A stretch of DNA of 40,288 bases. It comes from a virus. The notes beneath the pieces were generated by a model. It saw nothing but the letters and a program-made list of their open reading frames with translations, was not told the origin of the DNA and ran no database searches. The translations under genes and the position numbers were made by a program. Below, piece by piece: positions 2,397 through 10,293 of the stretch. Position 1 is the stretch's first letter, and each line of letters opens with the position of its first letter. Location: IMG/VR virus record IMGVR_UViG_3300035145_003246, positions 1 to 40,288 of that record; one strand, given 5' to 3'.

Positions 2397-3218
2397 ATGG
2401 TAGCAAAAAGACCTACAAGTGTTGGATTGTCTAAACTTAAATCTAAGTTGATGCGTCCAGCAACAACTTCACATTTTTTGTGCCAGTTTCAACCACCAGC
2501 GGGGAAAGCAATACAAAGTTTTGCATCTTCTAGAGCAGCGGATGGATTTCTAGGTGCTACAGCATATACTGATAGTGGTGGGGCAGAATTAATTGAGTTA
2601 TCATGTGCCAATGCATCATTGCCAGGATCTTCATTAGCAACACACGAAATCAATAATGATTTCACAGGTGTGACTGAGAGACATGCATATAGAAGACAAT
2701 ATGATGAACGTTCTGATTTTACTTTTTATGTAGATAGTGATTATAAGATAATAGATTTCTTTGAAAGTTGGATGTCGTTTATTGTTGGTGAGGATAATTT
2801 AGATGAACAAGTTAATCCAAATTATTCTTATAGAATGAATTTTCCTAAGGAATATAAAACCGATTATTTGTACATAACCAAATTTGAAAAAAATTATAAT
2901 TCTCCTCAAAAACTTGGAGAAGAACTTGTCCCTACATCTCTTACATATCAGTTTATAAATGCTTTTCCAATAAGCATAAATTCAATGCCAGTTTCATATG
3001 AGGGATCTGACGTTTTAAAATGCACAGTATCATTTACTTATAGTCGTTATGTGATTAATTCGCGTCCAATAACACAAAGACAACAGAATTGGGAAGATGA
3101 ATTGGGTGGAGGAGACAGAATTATTGGAAGCGGGACACTGGATGAATTGAATGCAATTAAAACAGGAGCAATAAGTACTCCAGTCACATTACCAGATCAA
3201 GGTTTTGTAAATACTTAA
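2397..3218 (+). CDS. 54: Baseplate tail-tube initiator protein gp54
   Basis: This 273-aa protein resembles cyanophage gp54, which together with gp48 starts tail-tube polymerisation on the baseplate. The N-terminus RPTSVGLSKLKSKLMRPATT followed by SHFLCQFQPP is the family's usual opening. The core contains a tube-protein-like beta pattern: ELSCANASLPGS, the FTGVTERHAYRRQYDERSD region, DFTFYVDSDY, and a C-terminal YQFINAFPISINSMPVSY then LKCTVSFTYSRYVI. These last strands are typical of the tail-tube fold. The ATG at 2397 has no recognisable Shine-Dalgarno sequence and lies one base after the divergent late promoter element, so the promoter for this gene itself is not clear. Confidence 0.82.
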   Translation: MVAKRPTSVGLSKLKSKLMRPATTSHFLCQFQPPAGKAIQSFASSRAADGFLGATAYTDSGGAELIELSCANASLPGSSLATHEINNDFTGVTERHAYRRQYDERSDFTFYVDSDYKIIDFFESWMSFIVGEDNLDEQVNPNYSYRMNFPKEYKTDYLYITKFEKNYNSPQKLGEELVPTSLTYQFINAFPISINSMPVSYEGSDVLKCTVSFTYSRYVINSRPITQRQQNWEDELGGGDRIIGSGTLDELNAIKTGAISTPVTLPDQGFVNT

Positions 3219-3251: not shown

Positions 3252-3971
3252 ATGCCTTTACCAAAAATTGCTACACCAACATATGAGTTGGAATTGCCAT
3301 CAACAGGAAAAAATATAAAGTATAGACCATTTCTAGTTAAGGAAGAAAAACTTTTGGTTCTTGCACTTGAAAGTGAGAATACGAAGGAAATTACTACCGC
3401 TATTAAGAATGTAATCAAAGCATGTATTCTTTCTAGAGGTGTTAAGGTTGAAACACTTCCTACATTTGATATTGAATATTTGTTTTTGAATATCAGAGGC
3501 AAGTCAGTTGGTGAAGAAATTGAAGTCAATATTGTTTGTCCAGATGATGGGGAGACTTATGTTCCTGTGAAAATTAATATTGATGAGATTGGAGTTGAAA
3601 AATCAGAAAAGCATACTAATAAAATTAAAGTAGACGATAGTCTTACAATGGAGATGAAATATCCATCACTGGATCAGTTCATCAAATCCAACTTTGATTT
3701 CTCAGAAGATGCTGGCATGGACCAGTCTTTTGATTTGGTTGCAAATTGTATTGAAAAGATTTACAATAGTGAAGAAGCATGGACATCTGCGGATTGTACT
3801 AAGAAGGAATTGATTGATTTCTTAGAGCAAATGAACTCATCTCAGTTTAAAGAGATTGAAAAGTTTTTTGAAACGATGCCTAAACTTTCTCATGAGGTTG
3901 AGGTTGTCAATCCTAAAACAGAAGTTAAGAGCACTGTTGTACTGGAGGGACTGTCAAGTTTTTTCGCGTAG
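3252..3971 (+). CDS. 26: Baseplate hub / tail-assembly protein, gp26-gp51 (T4_baseplate) type
   Basis: This 239-aa protein resembles the T4 baseplate family that includes gp26 and gp51. Visible features are the N-terminal LPKIATPTYELELPSTGKNI followed by KYRPFLVKEEKLL, which is the conserved start of the family, then an FLNIRGKSVGEE segment, a VNIVCPDDGETYVPVKINID beta hairpin, and an acidic helical C-terminal half. The length is near that of T4 gp26 (208) and gp51 (249). Gp26 versus gp51 cannot be separated by eye. The last codons before the TAG form a minus-one slippery heptamer followed by a perfect hairpin, and the minus-one frame continues into the next small ORF. The gene may therefore make both a 239-aa protein and a minor fusion of about 299 aa. 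Confidence 0.75.
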   Translation: MPLPKIATPTYELELPSTGKNIKYRPFLVKEEKLLVLALESENTKEITTAIKNVIKACILSRGVKVETLPTFDIEYLFLNIRGKSVGEEIEVNIVCPDDGETYVPVKINIDEIGVEKSEKHTNKIKVDDSLTMEMKYPSLDQFIKSNFDFSEDAGMDQSFDLVANCIEKIYNSEEAWTSADCTKKELIDFLEQMNSSQFKEIEKFFETMPKLSHEVEVVNPKTEVKSTVVLEGLSSFFA

Positions 3972-4000
3972 GTCTCTCCCATATGGATCTTGAGACCTAC
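3959..4000 (+). promoter_or_regulatory. Probable programmed -1 ribosomal frameshift signal (slippery heptamer plus hairpin)
   Basis: T TTT TTC at 3959-3965 is in the zero frame of the gp26-type gene and fits X XXY YYZ. One sense codon (GCG) separates it from the TAG stop. A perfect 9-bp inverted repeat follows: GTAGGTCTC at 3968-3976 and GAGACCTAC at 3992-4000, with a 15-nt loop. The 2-nt gap between heptamer and stem is shorter than usual, so the lower stem pairs may be open when the ribosome pauses. The minus-one frame is open from 3929 to the TGA at 4148. After slippage the product reads FF then RVGLSH, then the 55-aa small ORF. Seen directly: heptamer, stem, open frame. Inferred: that it functions. 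Confidence 0.7.
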
Positions 4001-4150
4001 TATAAATTAAATTTTTCCTTGATGCAGTACCATAAATATTCACTAACAGAGATAGAAAATTTAATTCCTTGGGAAAGGGACATTTATGTTGAATTGTTGA
4101 AGGCACACATAGAAGAAGAAAAACAAAAGCAGCAACAAAATGGGACCTGA
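3983..4150 (+). CDS. Small -1-frame ORF, probable frameshift extension of the gp26-type protein
   Basis: The 55-codon ORF reads MDLETYYKLNFSLMQYHKYS, then LTEIENLIPWERDIYVELLK, and ends in a Glu/Lys/Gln-rich tail. It is too short for routine gene calling. The ATG lies in the loop of the hairpin at 3968-4000, and the only AGG that could act as a Shine-Dalgarno sequence is inside the stem, so independent initiation looks poor. It is in the minus-one frame of the upstream gene, in line with synthesis as a C-terminal extension (238 + 6 + 55 residues). The short helical body with a PWERDIYVELL motif recalls the small T-type partners of lambda G/GT tail-assembly chaperones, but this is analogy. It overlaps the next gene by 11 nt. 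Confidence 0.7.
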   Translation: MDLETYYKLNFSLMQYHKYSLTEIENLIPWERDIYVELLKAHIEEEKQKQQQNGT

Positions 4151-6353
4151 CGAACTCGACGATCTACTAGCATCTATAAGAGCAGAATCCGAAGAGGAGT
4201 CTAAGGAAAAGGGTGGTGCTTTAACATTATATGAGGGAACAAGAGAGACAGATTTAGTATCAGAATCTATAGATGAAAGAATTTTAAGACTTCTTGGATT
4301 GGAAGAAGTCTTTGATATGGATTATGCAACTTACTTATCTCTTTTAAAAGAGAAACTGGTTGCTGCTAGAATGGTTAACGCCAATCTACCGGGCGATGAA
4401 AACGAATTACTTACTGATGAGTTTAGAAGAGTAAAGCGTAAAGTTGGAAGATTTAAGATAGTTAGAAAGAAAATATCTTCTGATGATATTGGTACAACAG
4501 GAAAAGTCATTGTTTCTCCAGATAAATTTTTCTTAGTATCTAAAGCAGTTATTCCATCTACAAGTGAAGGTGACGGAAAAGAAAGTTCTTCTGACATTAT
4601 AAAAAAACTAGATGAACTTATTGATGTAATTAAAAATGACAACAAACTTGAACTGAAAAAACAAGAGGATGAAAGAAAAAATAAACAGAATAAAAAAAGA
4701 CAAGATGCAGAAAATAGACTAGAGTCTATTTCAAAACCAGTTCAAAGATTACTGAAGACCGTGGTTGCTCCATTCCAGAGTATCCTTGGTCGCATATTTA
4801 AGTTCCTTAAGTTTACTATACTTGGATATGCTTTTAATCGATTTGTCACATTCTTTTCTAATCCAAAAAATCAAAAGAAAATAGAAGCAATTGGTAGATT
4901 CTTAAAAGATTGGTGGCCATCACTACTTGGTGTTGCAGCATTATTCTTTACACCTCTTGGGGTTCTTGTAAAGGGTGTTATCAGTTTAATGCGATTTGCA
5001 ATTCCTGCATTATTGAAAATAGTTAAACGAAATCCATACACAGCACTTGCCATAGCTGGTGTTTCTGGTATTGGTCTTATTTCAAAGTTACTTCCAAAAA
5101 GCGAAGAATCAACAGTAGAAAGTGGTGATATAAAAGGCATAGAAAACTTTAAAGATACTGGAAAACTACCTGATGTAGTAACAAAATTTAATCAGGGTGG
5201 AATCGTAAATGATCAGATATTAAAGTATAATCAAGGAGGTATGGTTCCAGTCATGCTCACAAAAGGTGAGTATGTAGTCCCACCGAATCAAGCTCAGAAT
5301 ATTGGTGCTTCAACATTATATGCAATCAATAATGTCAAAAATTATAATCAAGGTGGATTGATACCAGGAAGGGGACCGAATGTTGATACTGTAAGAACTC
5401 AACTAAGAGAAGGTTCTTTTGTAATTAAAAGACCAGCAGTAGATGCTTTAGGTTCTAATAATATTCACAACTTTGTATCAAACTACAATCAAGGCGGCAT
5501 AATCGGAGGACTGAGATTTCCAAGAACTGGAAGAGTTATGACACCTCCTGGAAGCACAGGTGGAAGATATGTGCGAGATGGTGGAACCGTAACTAATCAG
5601 ATATTTAAATATAATCAAGGTGGTATGATTGGAGGACTGAGACTTCCCAGAACTGGAAGAGTTATGGCACCATTATCCTCACAGGGAGGCACTTACGATA
5701 GAGATGGTGGAACTGTACAGAAGTTTCTTGGAATGACAGTTCCTGGATCTTTTAGAAGAACTGGATACACCTCTGAGGATATTAAAAGATATAATCGAGT
5801 AAGTCCAAATAATTATCTTGAACAGTTTGAAGCAGGTTTGAAACCTGAAACTTATTCACCAGATTTCTATCAATATGCTGCAGAGATGGGTATAGACACT
5901 GAGGGAGCACATAGAGTTAAACCAAAACCATTATCAACTTCAATTCTAAATACGGGATCTAATAATACTAGATTGAACAAAGCAATAGAAGATGCAAGTC
6001 AAATTGGTGACATGACAGGAACTCAAGGATTGATGAGAAAGGCAAGTGGCACTGCATTGCAAATGCAGGGCAGATATGATACCTTACGTGACGTTATGCG
6101 TCAGGGAGGGATATCTGGTGCAGATGAAACCATGAATCTTTATGGTAAACCAATGCTCGGACCACAATCCAGAGTTTCGCCGGTAGATATGCCACAAACC
6201 ATGTCTAAAATGCAAACCATTGTATTGCCACCAACTACAATGCAAGCGAAAAAACCACCAAATCAAGGTAGTGCTGCAACAGAACTTCCTTCGTTTAATA
6301 TTGCGCGTGCTAGATCTTCTAACCATGTTCTAGAATATCTTGGTATAGGATGA
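4140..6353 (+). CDS. Tape-measure-like tail protein (NQGG-repeat protein)
   Basis: This 737-aa protein has an acidic N-terminus, a charged coiled-coil-like region (residues about 150-200, very rich in Lys/Glu/Asn), and a hydrophobic block at about 220-320 with FLKFTILGYAFNRF, WWPSLLGVAALFF and YTALAIAGVSGIGLISKLL. Residues 350-530 carry five (K/N)(F/Y)NQGG(I/M/L) repeats. Some are followed by tape-measure-style phrases such as MVPVMLTKGEYVVP and GLIPGRGPNVDTVRTQLREG then SFVI. The GG-(V/I)PG...D.V...L..GEFVI pattern is common in tail tape-measure proteins. It directly follows the candidate frameshifted chaperone, where tape measures sit in lambda-like gene order. T4 gp29 is the functional counterpart I would propose. 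The start overlaps the small ORF by 11 nt. Confidence 0.6.
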   Translation: MGPDELDDLLASIRAESEEESKEKGGALTLYEGTRETDLVSESIDERILRLLGLEEVFDMDYATYLSLLKEKLVAARMVNANLPGDENELLTDEFRRVKRKVGRFKIVRKKISSDDIGTTGKVIVSPDKFFLVSKAVIPSTSEGDGKESSSDIIKKLDELIDVIKNDNKLELKKQEDERKNKQNKKRQDAENRLESISKPVQRLLKTVVAPFQSILGRIFKFLKFTILGYAFNRFVTFFSNPKNQKKIEAIGRFLKDWWPSLLGVAALFFTPLGVLVKGVISLMRFAIPALLKIVKRNPYTALAIAGVSGIGLISKLLPKSEESTVESGDIKGIENFKDTGKLPDVVTKFNQGGIVNDQILKYNQGGMVPVMLTKGEYVVPPNQAQNIGASTLYAINNVKNYNQGGLIPGRGPNVDTVRTQLREGSFVIKRPAVDALGSNNIHNFVSNYNQGGIIGGLRFPRTGRVMTPPGSTGGRYVRDGGTVTNQIFKYNQGGMIGGLRLPRTGRVMAPLSSQGGTYDRDGGTVQKFLGMTVPGSFRRTGYTSEDIKRYNRVSPNNYLEQFEAGLKPETYSPDFYQYAAEMGIDTEGAHRVKPKPLSTSILNTGSNNTRLNKAIEDASQIGDMTGTQGLMRKASGTALQMQGRYDTLRDVMRQGGISGADETMNLYGKPMLGPQSRVSPVDMPQTMSKMQTIVLPPTTMQAKKPPNQGSAATELPSFNIARARSSNHVLEYLGIG
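5481..5717 (+). repeat. Imperfect direct repeat in the tape-measure-like gene (126-bp period)
   Basis: Two 111-bp copies start at 5481 and 5607. Each encodes 37 residues opening (N/K)YNQGG(I/M)IGGLR(F/L)P, continuing RTGRVM, and ending RDGGTV. They are the last two of the five NQGG units, and the similarity is visible at DNA level, which points to an internal tandem duplication. Confidence 0.85.
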
Positions 6354-6354
6354 T

Positions 6355-8751
6355 ATGAAAACTATCGATTCCAAAAAACTATTACCTTCTAGTGGGCAGG
6401 ATAAGAAACAAGTATTTCTTGTCCCTGTTAATAATATTATTCCATCTAAACCAAAACTTCTTTCTGGCATAAAACCTGAGAAGAAAGATGATGACTCTGA
6501 AAAGTCTTCAGTTATTAGTGAAAAGATTTCCGATATCACTAAACTTCTTAGATATGGTTTATTATTGAAAGAAAGAGATAAAAGAAGAAAAAGAAGAGAG
6601 CAAGAAATAAAGAACAGAAATGAAAGGGAACGTGAATTAGAAACAAAGAAGTTAGGAAAAAAAGGAGAACAAGAAAAGCAGGCAGTAAAGATTCCAGGGT
6701 CTAGCATCTTTGATAGATTGATGAGATTTGCTGGGTTTACTCTCCTGGGATTTTTATTCAATAATTATGGTAGACTTCTTCCTCAACTTAATGTTATTGG
6801 TCGTATTTTAAAACCAGCTGCGGTTGGTATTATGAATTTTGCGGAAGGACTTCTGTCAAATACTGTTGATTGGATTGAAAAAGGATATAAAGCTTATGAT
6901 GCTGTATCTGAATTCACAAAAGAAATTGGTGGAGAAAACTTTCAAAAATTATTCAATGATTTTTCTGGTGCTTTAACTCTTGCTATTAATGGTGTTATCA
7001 TTGCTGGTGCTGCTGCACTTCGTGGTGGTCTGTTTAAAAAACCTTCACAGTCTCTATCACGACCTAAGGCAATCAGTTCGCCTAATACTACAAGGGGATT
7101 TAGATCCCCTGGGCGATATCGTCTTCCCGGACAAGCTGCTGCTGGAGGTACATTTCAAGAAAATTTAATCAGACAACAACGAACAAGACAAGGAATGCTA
7201 TCACCAAGCAGATCAAGAGGACCTCTTGGTAGACTTAGCGCGATGGGAAGAGGATTTGGTGCTAGTCTTGAAACCGGAACTGCATTTGGAGGTGCAGGAG
7301 GTGGCATTCAAAAAGGTGCTGTAAGCACACTTAGAAAAGTAACAAATCTTGGAAGAGGAATTGGTGGTGGTGCTAGAGGAATTCCTATTATAGGTCCATT
7401 AATTAATTTTGGAATTTCTATAGCACTTGGAGACAGACCAGATAAAGCAGCTGCTGGTGCTGTTGGTTCTGCTTTTGGAGCAGCTTTGGGTAGTTTTCCA
7501 GCATTACTTCCTTTTGGTGGTCCGATATGGGGAGGATTACTAGGTGATATAGTAGGTAGAAGTTTATATGATGTTGTTTTAAAATTTACAGGAACACCCA
7601 CAGAGGAGTTTAACAAAGGTGGTATGGTTAATCCACCACCACAATTGCCGAAAGCAAAGAAGGAAAAGGAACCTGAACCTGATTTATTTAAAGATTCTTT
7701 AGGAACCCTAAAAGGTAAAAAAATATATGGTAGTGGTGATAAAGAGGAATATGAAAAAGTCTTTGGTATTATAAAGGGAACGTATGACAGTATACTTAAT
7801 ACTTCTGGTGGATTTATCAGTAGTTTGATGGCAGGTGCCATTGGTTTACTTGCAGGTAATGACTTTGACGAAAATCTTCTGAAACATGTTGGTGATAGGT
7901 ATGGAATAACTACCGTTAATGGAATGAGAGATCTTAGCAATAAAACAAAAGATATCTTAAATCGAGAAAGTTCTAATATTATAGGGAAGAAGAAGGATCT
8001 TGATGATGCAGGTCAGGATAAAAAGGGTAAAAATCAATGGTGGGATTTTTTAGATCTGTTCCCTAATTCTAAAAGTGATAGTCGAGGCAGTGGTAGTGAA
8101 GGTGGTTCAGGTGGTGGCACTCCAAAATACACTGCTTCAGATGGTTCATTAAAAGGAAAGATCAGATCATTGGAATCTGGTGGTGATTATGGATCTACAT
8201 TTAAGAGATATCTTGGTGGTTTCTCAAGAAAAGATGAAGATATTACCAAAATGACAATCAATCAGGTTGTTCAATATCAGAAAGATTACATCGCCCATCA
8301 AAAGAATATAGGTATTAAACCAGAGCATAGAAGTGCTGCGGTTGGTGCATATCAAATGTTATATCCTGAAGTTGCTGCAAAAAAAGTGGGTGTTGATTTG
8401 AATGCAAAATTTGACCAAGAAACTCAAGATAAACTTGCAGAGTATTATCTCAACATGGCAGGACAACAGAAATTTCTAGCTGGAGATATCACTGCGGAAC
8501 AATATAATGATAGACTGGCAGGTCAATTTGCTTCGATTAAAACAGTCTCTGGAGGAGGTGTTTACGATGATGATGGTGTCAATACAGCATATGGTTCGGT
8601 TTTAGATGAAATTAAAAGAACTAAAGCGAAACCCACTAAACTAAAATTAGAACCTCAAAAAAAATCTGACATAAAAGAGATTGCGATGACTCCTGCATAT
8701 AATACAATTGAACTACATACCGTGTTGGTTCAACCTGTAATAGTGGGTTAA
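6355..8751 (+). CDS. Tape-measure-like tail protein with C-terminal muramidase-like domain
   Basis: This 798-aa protein begins with a Lys/Arg/Glu-rich helical region (residues 40-110). A hydrophobic stretch follows at about 120-145 (MRFAGFTLLGFLFNNYGRLL), resembling the neighbouring upstream protein. Next come Ala/Gly-rich helices at about 195-225 and 345-405, an EEFNKGGMVNPPP unit, and a flexible Gly/Ser linker (GSGSEGGSGGGT) near 580-592. From about 600 to 745 there is a lysozyme-like domain: IRSLESGGDYGS with Glu607 as the likely catalytic acid, then RSAAVGAYQMLYPEVA, matching the ESGGDY...GAYQ layout of lysozyme-fold muramidases. Such domains on tail-core proteins locally open peptidoglycan during DNA entry. 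The gene starts one base after the preceding stop codon. The exact lysozyme subfamily is not assigned. Confidence 0.65.
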   Translation: MKTIDSKKLLPSSGQDKKQVFLVPVNNIIPSKPKLLSGIKPEKKDDDSEKSSVISEKISDITKLLRYGLLLKERDKRRKRREQEIKNRNERERELETKKLGKKGEQEKQAVKIPGSSIFDRLMRFAGFTLLGFLFNNYGRLLPQLNVIGRILKPAAVGIMNFAEGLLSNTVDWIEKGYKAYDAVSEFTKEIGGENFQKLFNDFSGALTLAINGVIIAGAAALRGGLFKKPSQSLSRPKAISSPNTTRGFRSPGRYRLPGQAAAGGTFQENLIRQQRTRQGMLSPSRSRGPLGRLSAMGRGFGASLETGTAFGGAGGGIQKGAVSTLRKVTNLGRGIGGGARGIPIIGPLINFGISIALGDRPDKAAAGAVGSAFGAALGSFPALLPFGGPIWGGLLGDIVGRSLYDVVLKFTGTPTEEFNKGGMVNPPPQLPKAKKEKEPEPDLFKDSLGTLKGKKIYGSGDKEEYEKVFGIIKGTYDSILNTSGGFISSLMAGAIGLLAGNDFDENLLKHVGDRYGITTVNGMRDLSNKTKDILNRESSNIIGKKKDLDDAGQDKKGKNQWWDFLDLFPNSKSDSRGSGSEGGSGGGTPKYTASDGSLKGKIRSLESGGDYGSTFKRYLGGFSRKDEDITKMTINQVVQYQKDYIAHQKNIGIKPEHRSAAVGAYQMLYPEVAAKKVGVDLNAKFDQETQDKLAEYYLNMAGQQKFLAGDITAEQYNDRLAGQFASIKTVSGGGVYDDDGVNTAYGSVLDEIKRTKAKPTKLKLEPQKKSDIKEIAMTPAYNTIELHTVLVQPVIVG

Positions 8752-10065: not shown

Positions 10066-10293
10066 ATGGAAAACATCGAAGCACACATTGAGAAGGATAA
10101 AAAGATCCTAGAGGATCCTACAACTTCTCCACAGCAGCGTCGTCACGTTGAGGGAGAACTGCATGAACTTGAAGTTTATGTAGAGAATCATAAGGATGAA
10201 ATTGAAGCAGGAGATCACCATGATCCAACTGCACTTGAACTGTATTGCGAAGTAGAACCAGGCGCACCAGAGTGTAAAACCCACGATAACTAA
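10066..10293 (+). CDS. cp12: CP12-like Calvin-cycle regulator (auxiliary metabolic gene)
   Basis: The 75-aa protein has the size and C-terminal signature of CP12: LELYCEVEPGAPECKTHDN, with Cys61 and Cys70 spaced as in the host C-terminal Cys pair. In cyanobacteria this pair forms the redox loop that binds GAPDH and, with phosphoribulokinase, shuts the Calvin cycle. The middle RRHVEGELHELEVYVENHKD aligns in position with the AWD-VEEL helix of host CP12, but the AWD core is not conserved and the N-terminal Cys pair is absent. Known cyanophage CP12 genes are thought to divert carbon from the Calvin cycle to the pentose phosphate pathway. It has a good Shine-Dalgarno sequence (GGAG, 8 nt before the ATG) and overlaps the next gene by one base, so it is embedded in the virion operon. 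Confidence 0.78.
   Translation: MENIEAHIEKDKKILEDPTTSPQQRRHVEGELHELEVYVENHKDEIEAGDHHDPTALELYCEVEPGAPECKTHDN

Follow-up and report, generated by a model that had tools for sequence, protein, structure and literature searches.

A probable programmed -1 ribosomal frameshift at the end of gp26, predicted to yield two forms of a tail-assembly chaperone in a T4-type phage and its relatives

A programmed -1 ribosomal frameshift very likely operates at the 3' end of gp26 in the marine T4-type phage studied here, where it would yield two forms of a tail-assembly chaperone, a short one and one extended at its C-terminus. The window, that is the whole stretch of 40,288 nucleotides that was analysed (IMG/VR virus record IMGVR_UViG_3300035145_003246), had led an earlier note to propose such a shift onto a 55-codon ORF, and this proposal is now supported by heptamer conservation, by selection on the -1-frame protein, by loci in which the small ORF has no start codon, and by structure downstream of the heptamer. 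The basis of the present analysis is the anatomy of the site, its conservation, the coding selection in the -1 frame and the homology that links the long form with T4 gp51. Judged from these comparisons of sequences, a -1 slip at the end of gp26 very probably takes place in the window and in nearly all of the examined relatives outside the T4 group.

Results

The site follows the tail tube gene and comprises the following features.

2397 to 3218, + strand: tail tube protein gene, directly 5' of gp26 (phrog_45 tail tube, 1.3e-35; PF23849 Phage_TTP_2, 2.1e-16)
3252 to 3971, + strand: gp26, read here as the putative short tail-assembly chaperone, 239 codons plus stop in the zero frame (PF12322 T4_baseplate, 1.8e-76; phrog_150, 3.8e-81)
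3959 to 3965, + strand: slippery heptamer T TTT TTC, in phase with gp26 and one codon ahead of its stop
3969 to 3971, + strand: zero-frame stop TAG, the end of the short product, as read in the sequence
3965 to 4150, + strand: -1 frame extension, 61 codons by translation, beginning RVGLSHMDLETYY and closed by the stop TGA at 4148-4150
3983 to 4150, + strand: 55-codon ORF, annotated elsewhere as a separate gp51 (phrog_634, 2.8e-26), with its ATG in the hairpin loop

A base-by-base check gave AGT TTT TTC GCG TAG as the 3' end of gp26 in the zero frame and bore out the in-phase T TTT TTC at 3959-3965 that the earlier note had pointed to. Translation likewise confirmed the -1 frame, described there as open from 3929 to 4150, which opens just past a TAG at 3926-3928 and closes at the TGA. 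The predicted long product would consist of gp26 residues 1-238 followed by the -1 extension, about 299 aa in all. The statement that the 55-codon ORF was otherwise uncalled proved wrong, since it matches phrog_634, 'baseplate hub assembly catalyst'; the small -1 ORF is annotated under this name or as gp51 in P-SSM2, P-SSM4 and many other cyanophages. No second full-length gp51 gene of the T4 kind was found in the 40,288-base record, itself a fragment, which holds one PF12322 gene, and no NCBIfam family scored over its cut-off for gp26 or for the -1 domain.

Relatives were gathered by gp26 homology, from IMG/VR and among named phages, and not by the heptamer; every junction was read mechanically, and ten gp51 genes of the T4 type were set aside as natural fusions, leaving 266 gp26 loci. 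An in-phase T TTT TTC or T TTT TTT was present 7-13 nt 5' of the stop in 264 of these loci, which argues against chance since the loci had been fetched by gp26 homology. The earlier note's expectation of a conserved heptamer was thus confirmed in nearly every gp26-type relative. The T run comprises six residues in most loci and seven in some, always in the X XXY YYZ phase. The heptamer is also found in Vibrio nt-1, Vibrio D525, Delftia phiW-14, Aeromonas P19, Rhizobium LG08, Aeh1, Vibrio VmeM-32 and phage 65, and the hosts of the phages that carry it include cyanobacteria and several proteobacteria. In all 128 representatives, the codon 5' of the Phe pair has T as its third base (log10 P about -26), and TTT is used for the first of the two Phe residues, vs 70% TTT among Phe codons elsewhere (log10 P about -20), both probabilities being uncorrected for relatedness and therefore overstating the independence of related sequences.

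The two exceptions among the 266 loci are Vibrio K364 and a cyanophage contig (L217:2205-2240), in which gp26 and the extension lie in frame without the heptamer, apparently through a 2-base deletion at the site; this in-frame junction may be a natural fusion or an assembly error. Two Ackermannviridae also carry no canonical in-phase heptamer. In the latter phages and in Vibrio K364 (L282, L288 and L092), gp26 is accompanied by a small -1-frame ORF.

T4 gp26 matches PF12322 (8.8e-64), as do residues 1-201 of T4 gp51 (3.9e-52), and residues 147-246 of T4 gp51 match phrog_634, to which the small ORF of the window also belongs. In a profile comparison with hhalign, positions 14-200 of T4-type gp51 aligned with gp26 26-240 (E 5.7e-11) and positions 200-245 aligned, collinearly, with the -1 domain (E 3.1e-6), and the boundary between the two alignments falls on the Phe-Phe of the slip site. 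On the evidence of these alignments, T4 gp51 is a gp26 paralogue fused in frame to the -1 domain. In the split-gene T4-type phages, the Phe-Phe of the short gp26, where kept, is encoded by TTC TTT or TTC TTC, which leaves the amino acids unchanged but no heptamer, as expected of a negative control, since phages with separate short and long genes have no need to slip. Because T4 gp51 unites a gp26 paralogue with the -1 domain, and because the split-gene phages are devoid of the heptamer, the short 'gp51' of cyanophages is very probably, in the main, the domain by which a long chaperone is extended, on the lambda G/GT pattern. These data also suggest that, within the T4 superfamily, the frameshift is more widespread than the split genes, those of T4 being a likely derived replacement. 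As separate observations, RB43, L285:2001-3294, carries the fused long form and, following it on the same strand, the short form, a tandem order that contrasts with the divergent genes of T4, and L278:1501-2246 holds a T4-type gp51 homologue with an apparently broken reading frame, perhaps owing to a sequencing error.

The alternative that survives best, unlikely as it is, would have the 55-codon ORF translated as an ordinary separate gene (gp51) from ATG 3983, perhaps coupled to the termination of gp26 at TAG 3969. This agrees with the annotation of many cyanophages, and an ATG is found at the aligned codon in 127 of 234 distinct loci, with an upstream Shine-Dalgarno match slightly above random (-2.67 vs -1.41). 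The window itself shows a weak to moderate match at ATG 3983 (-3.3), and separate initiation is therefore possible there. Vibrio K364 and the Ackermannviridae, without a canonical in-phase heptamer, carry TAATG overlaps which also favor this alternative and suggest a stop-restart, or another slip site, in those phages. However, if the small ORF were begun at its ATG, the stretch between the heptamer and this ATG would go untranslated in the -1 frame, whereas the six codons 5' of the ATG are under selection for the -1-frame protein. Among the 128 representatives, 53% of the single-base codon differences in this stretch are synonymous in the -1 frame vs 23% expected, and the synonymous share is 26% in frame 0 and 8% in +1. 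By this measure, the segment between heptamer and ATG is evolving as a -1-frame protein.

The start codons also weigh against a separate gene. The codon aligned with ATG 3983 is an ATG in only those 127 loci; 42 of the 234 have no ATG within the first 13 codons of the -1 frame, and 31 have no ATG, GTG or TTG in these 13 codons or upstream in the -1 frame, and hence no start codon ahead of the domain core. The absence of a conserved start codon, which the earlier note had anticipated, was thus borne out. Named phages with such start-less -1 ORFs are Melnitz-3, S13, Aeh1 and phage 65, and the heptamer is combined with the lack of a usable start in Aeh1, phage 65, P19, S13 and Rhizobium LG08. A separate gene would moreover leave the near-invariant in-phase heptamer unexplained, and T4 has the same domain fused to a gp26 paralogue.

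A programmed frameshift is further supported by RNA structure 3' of the heptamer, the arms of which in the window are as follows.

3968 to 3976, + strand: 5' arm of the putative stimulatory hairpin, GTAGGTCTC, pairing with 3992-4000
3992 to 4000, + strand: 3' arm of the putative stimulatory hairpin, GAGACCTAC, a perfect 9 bp with 3968-3976

This perfect 9-bp hairpin, first described in the earlier note, stood up to a base check, and the region folds at -16.1 kcal/mol (z = -3.79 vs dinucleotide shuffles). The spacer to a stimulatory stem usually measures 5-9 nt. That between heptamer and stem is only 2 nt in the window, so that a slip could follow only once the lowest base pairs of the stem had opened. 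Over the 128 representatives, the hairpin segment has a mean z of -2.4 vs synonymous-codon shuffles, which preserve the -1-frame protein, and the control region has -0.26. The mean folding z is -2.25, -2.51 and -2.49 for folding windows that begin 6, 9 and 12 nt from the heptamer start; the signal decays almost to nothing by 39 nt and is close to zero upstream.

In the P-SSM2 clade, selected by protein identity, 95.5% of the stem cells are paired vs 23-49% in slid controls, and both sides have changed in 12 cells; the window's own clade has a weaker pairing signal, split over two registers in which 68% and 84% of cells are paired. The idea of one conserved stem at 3968-3976/3992-4000 was considered and rejected, the full 9-bp stem being present in only 5 of the 234 distinct loci. 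The hairpin register differs by clade, with at least three registers in use, and this shifting accounts for the lack of conservation of the exact stem. Of the conserved stem with compensatory changes envisaged in the earlier note, the structure and the compensatory pairs are therefore kept, but not the exact 9-bp stem. Sorting hairpins by their predicted register selects for pairing, and the conclusion leans on the clade-based and shuffle-based tests; these support a stimulatory hairpin downstream of the heptamer, of which the 9-bp stem of the window would be the local version. No Rfam match was found within 3800-4200.

The same long product could in principle come from an altered mRNA, if transcriptional slippage on the T6 run inserted a U. 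The site is indeed a homopolymer, T6 or, in some relatives, T7. However, T6 is short for slippage by bacterial RNA polymerase, and most loci keep its length at six, the X XXY YYZ phase being invariable and structure lying just downstream, as a ribosomal site requires, which makes slippage of the polymerase very improbable. Mere coincidence of a heptamer and an open -1 frame in an ordinary gene pair has next to no probability. Slippery heptamers are common in AT-rich sequence within one genome, but this heptamer is kept across several phage families and hosts, and the split-gene control and the comparative data refute coincidence.

The in-frame fusion of the L217 contig was modelled confidently, with a pLDDT of 90 and a pTM of 0.84. 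Compared with the PDB, including the solved tail chaperones, this model gave no match at E <= 0.001, a search that brought out no fold in common with the lambda or HK97 chaperones, and its significant structural matches were gp26-type and uncharacterised viral models. Searches by sequence for homologues of solved structure gave no credible match.

Downstream of the -1 ORF, two large genes are candidates for the tape measure.

4140 to 6353, + strand: tape-measure candidate 1, 737 aa, with a weak match to phrog_934 tape measure (0.0047) and a central hydrophobic stretch
6355 to 8751, + strand: tape-measure candidate 2, 798 aa (phrog_18972 and phrog_35997, function unknown)

The gene order is thus tube, gp26, -1 ORF and large tail gene, and phiM12 has, a short way downstream, a gene whose annotation gives a similarity to tape measure proteins. 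The ATG of the next gene (4140) overlaps the end of the -1 ORF (4140-4150), an overlap that is conserved, mostly at 8 or 11 nt, and that is found in 177 of the 209 relatives with a clear next gene. This next gene has almost no Shine-Dalgarno signal (mean -0.79 vs -2.23 for gp26 and -1.49 for shuffled sequence), such a signal being also missing from other genes in the window. The conserved overlap and the near-absent Shine-Dalgarno signal hint at translational coupling. That the slip would also dose the tape-measure protein, with initiation on its gene coming mostly from ribosomes that had shifted to the -1 frame beforehand, is a speculative and rather doubtful extension of this; if true, the long chaperone and the tape measure would be tied to one slip event. 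Elsewhere in the tail gene cluster, positions 10066-10290 of the window encode a protein of 75 aa whose C-terminal module is CP12-like (PF02672, 1.1e-7), with LYCEVEPGAPEC near its end, CP12 being a Calvin-cycle inhibitor often borne by cyanophages.

Discussion

From a mechanistic point of view, the majority of ribosomes would read gp26 to the TAG at 3969-3971 and release the 239-aa short form. A smaller share, delayed at the hairpin, would slip by -1 on T TTT TTC and read on to 4150, giving a long form of about 299 aa in which gp26 is followed by a helical domain at the C-terminus. If the roles are analogous to those in lambda gpG/gpGT, coating of the tape-measure protein would fall to the short form and recruitment of tube subunits to the extension. 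We infer the occurrence of the slip, its rate and these chaperone roles; the putative chaperone function is proposed because of the gene order, the frameshift itself and the literature.

Such a mechanism bears on the status of gp51. In T4, gp51 is an essential hub-assembly protein of unknown function, absent from the final particle (PMC3004832). The gp51 of cyanophages and marine vibriophage was described as having only about 20% of the length of other gp51 proteins, the first ~200 residues being missing, and Aeh1 was described as having no gp51 (PMC3037559). In Aeh1, we found the domain to be present, unannotated, in the -1 frame. The missing part of the short gp51 would be gp26 itself, joined by the shift, which would explain the oddity of the annotation. 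In addition, gp51 would gain a testable role, as the long form of the chaperone, and hundreds of phage records may need one joined gene instead of two.

The tail chaperones of T4-like phages were reportedly identified by Vladimirov, Gautam and Davidson in 2022 (doi 10.1016/j.virol.2021.11.003), under a title that argues for a mechanism other than frameshifting. In two later papers, this work is credited with a non-frameshift route via short and fused genes (PMC10885494) and with poly-T slip sites in T4-like short genes (PMC12846349). A cyanophage frameshift may therefore already have been described, and the earlier note's remark that it knew of no described case in the gp26/gp51 family is doubtful. 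Other papers that cite this work added nothing further on cyanophages. The literature searched yielded no description of start-less -1 ORFs, of selection in the -1 frame or of a register-shifting hairpin, nor of the loss of the heptamer in split-gene phages, and no explanation of the short cyanophage gp51 or of the missing Aeh1 gp51.

Among known systems, the arrangement resembles that of lambda gpG/gpGT, in which ribosomes slip by -1 close to the 3' end of a small gene flanked by tail tube and tape measure, giving a short and a C-terminally extended form (Xu, Hendrix and Duda 2004; PMC5009743). No relationship to lambda gpG/gpGT was detected in sequence or fold. The lambda heptamer is G GGA AAG, whereas T TTT TTC is found here, in a contractile phage of the T4 type. 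Vandenendeviridae and Andersonviridae also have a tail-chaperone frameshift, with GTTTTT (PMC12846349), and share with the window a poly-T -1 site at which the gene of the short chaperone ends, followed by a -1 frame that stays open up to the tape measure or, in the window, to its candidate; they differ in their GTTTTT motif and belong to other phage families. Frameshifting in tail chaperones is an old finding, and a review of 2016 held it to be widely conserved 'except T4' (PMC5009743), an exception that counts against the present reading, as does the title of 2022. T4 shares its families with the window, gp26 corresponding to the short form and gp51 uniting a gp26-type domain with the domain that lies here in the -1 frame. 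In T4, however, the short gp26 and the long gp51 are separate genes on opposite strands, without the heptamer, whereas the window has a single gene with a probable shift site.
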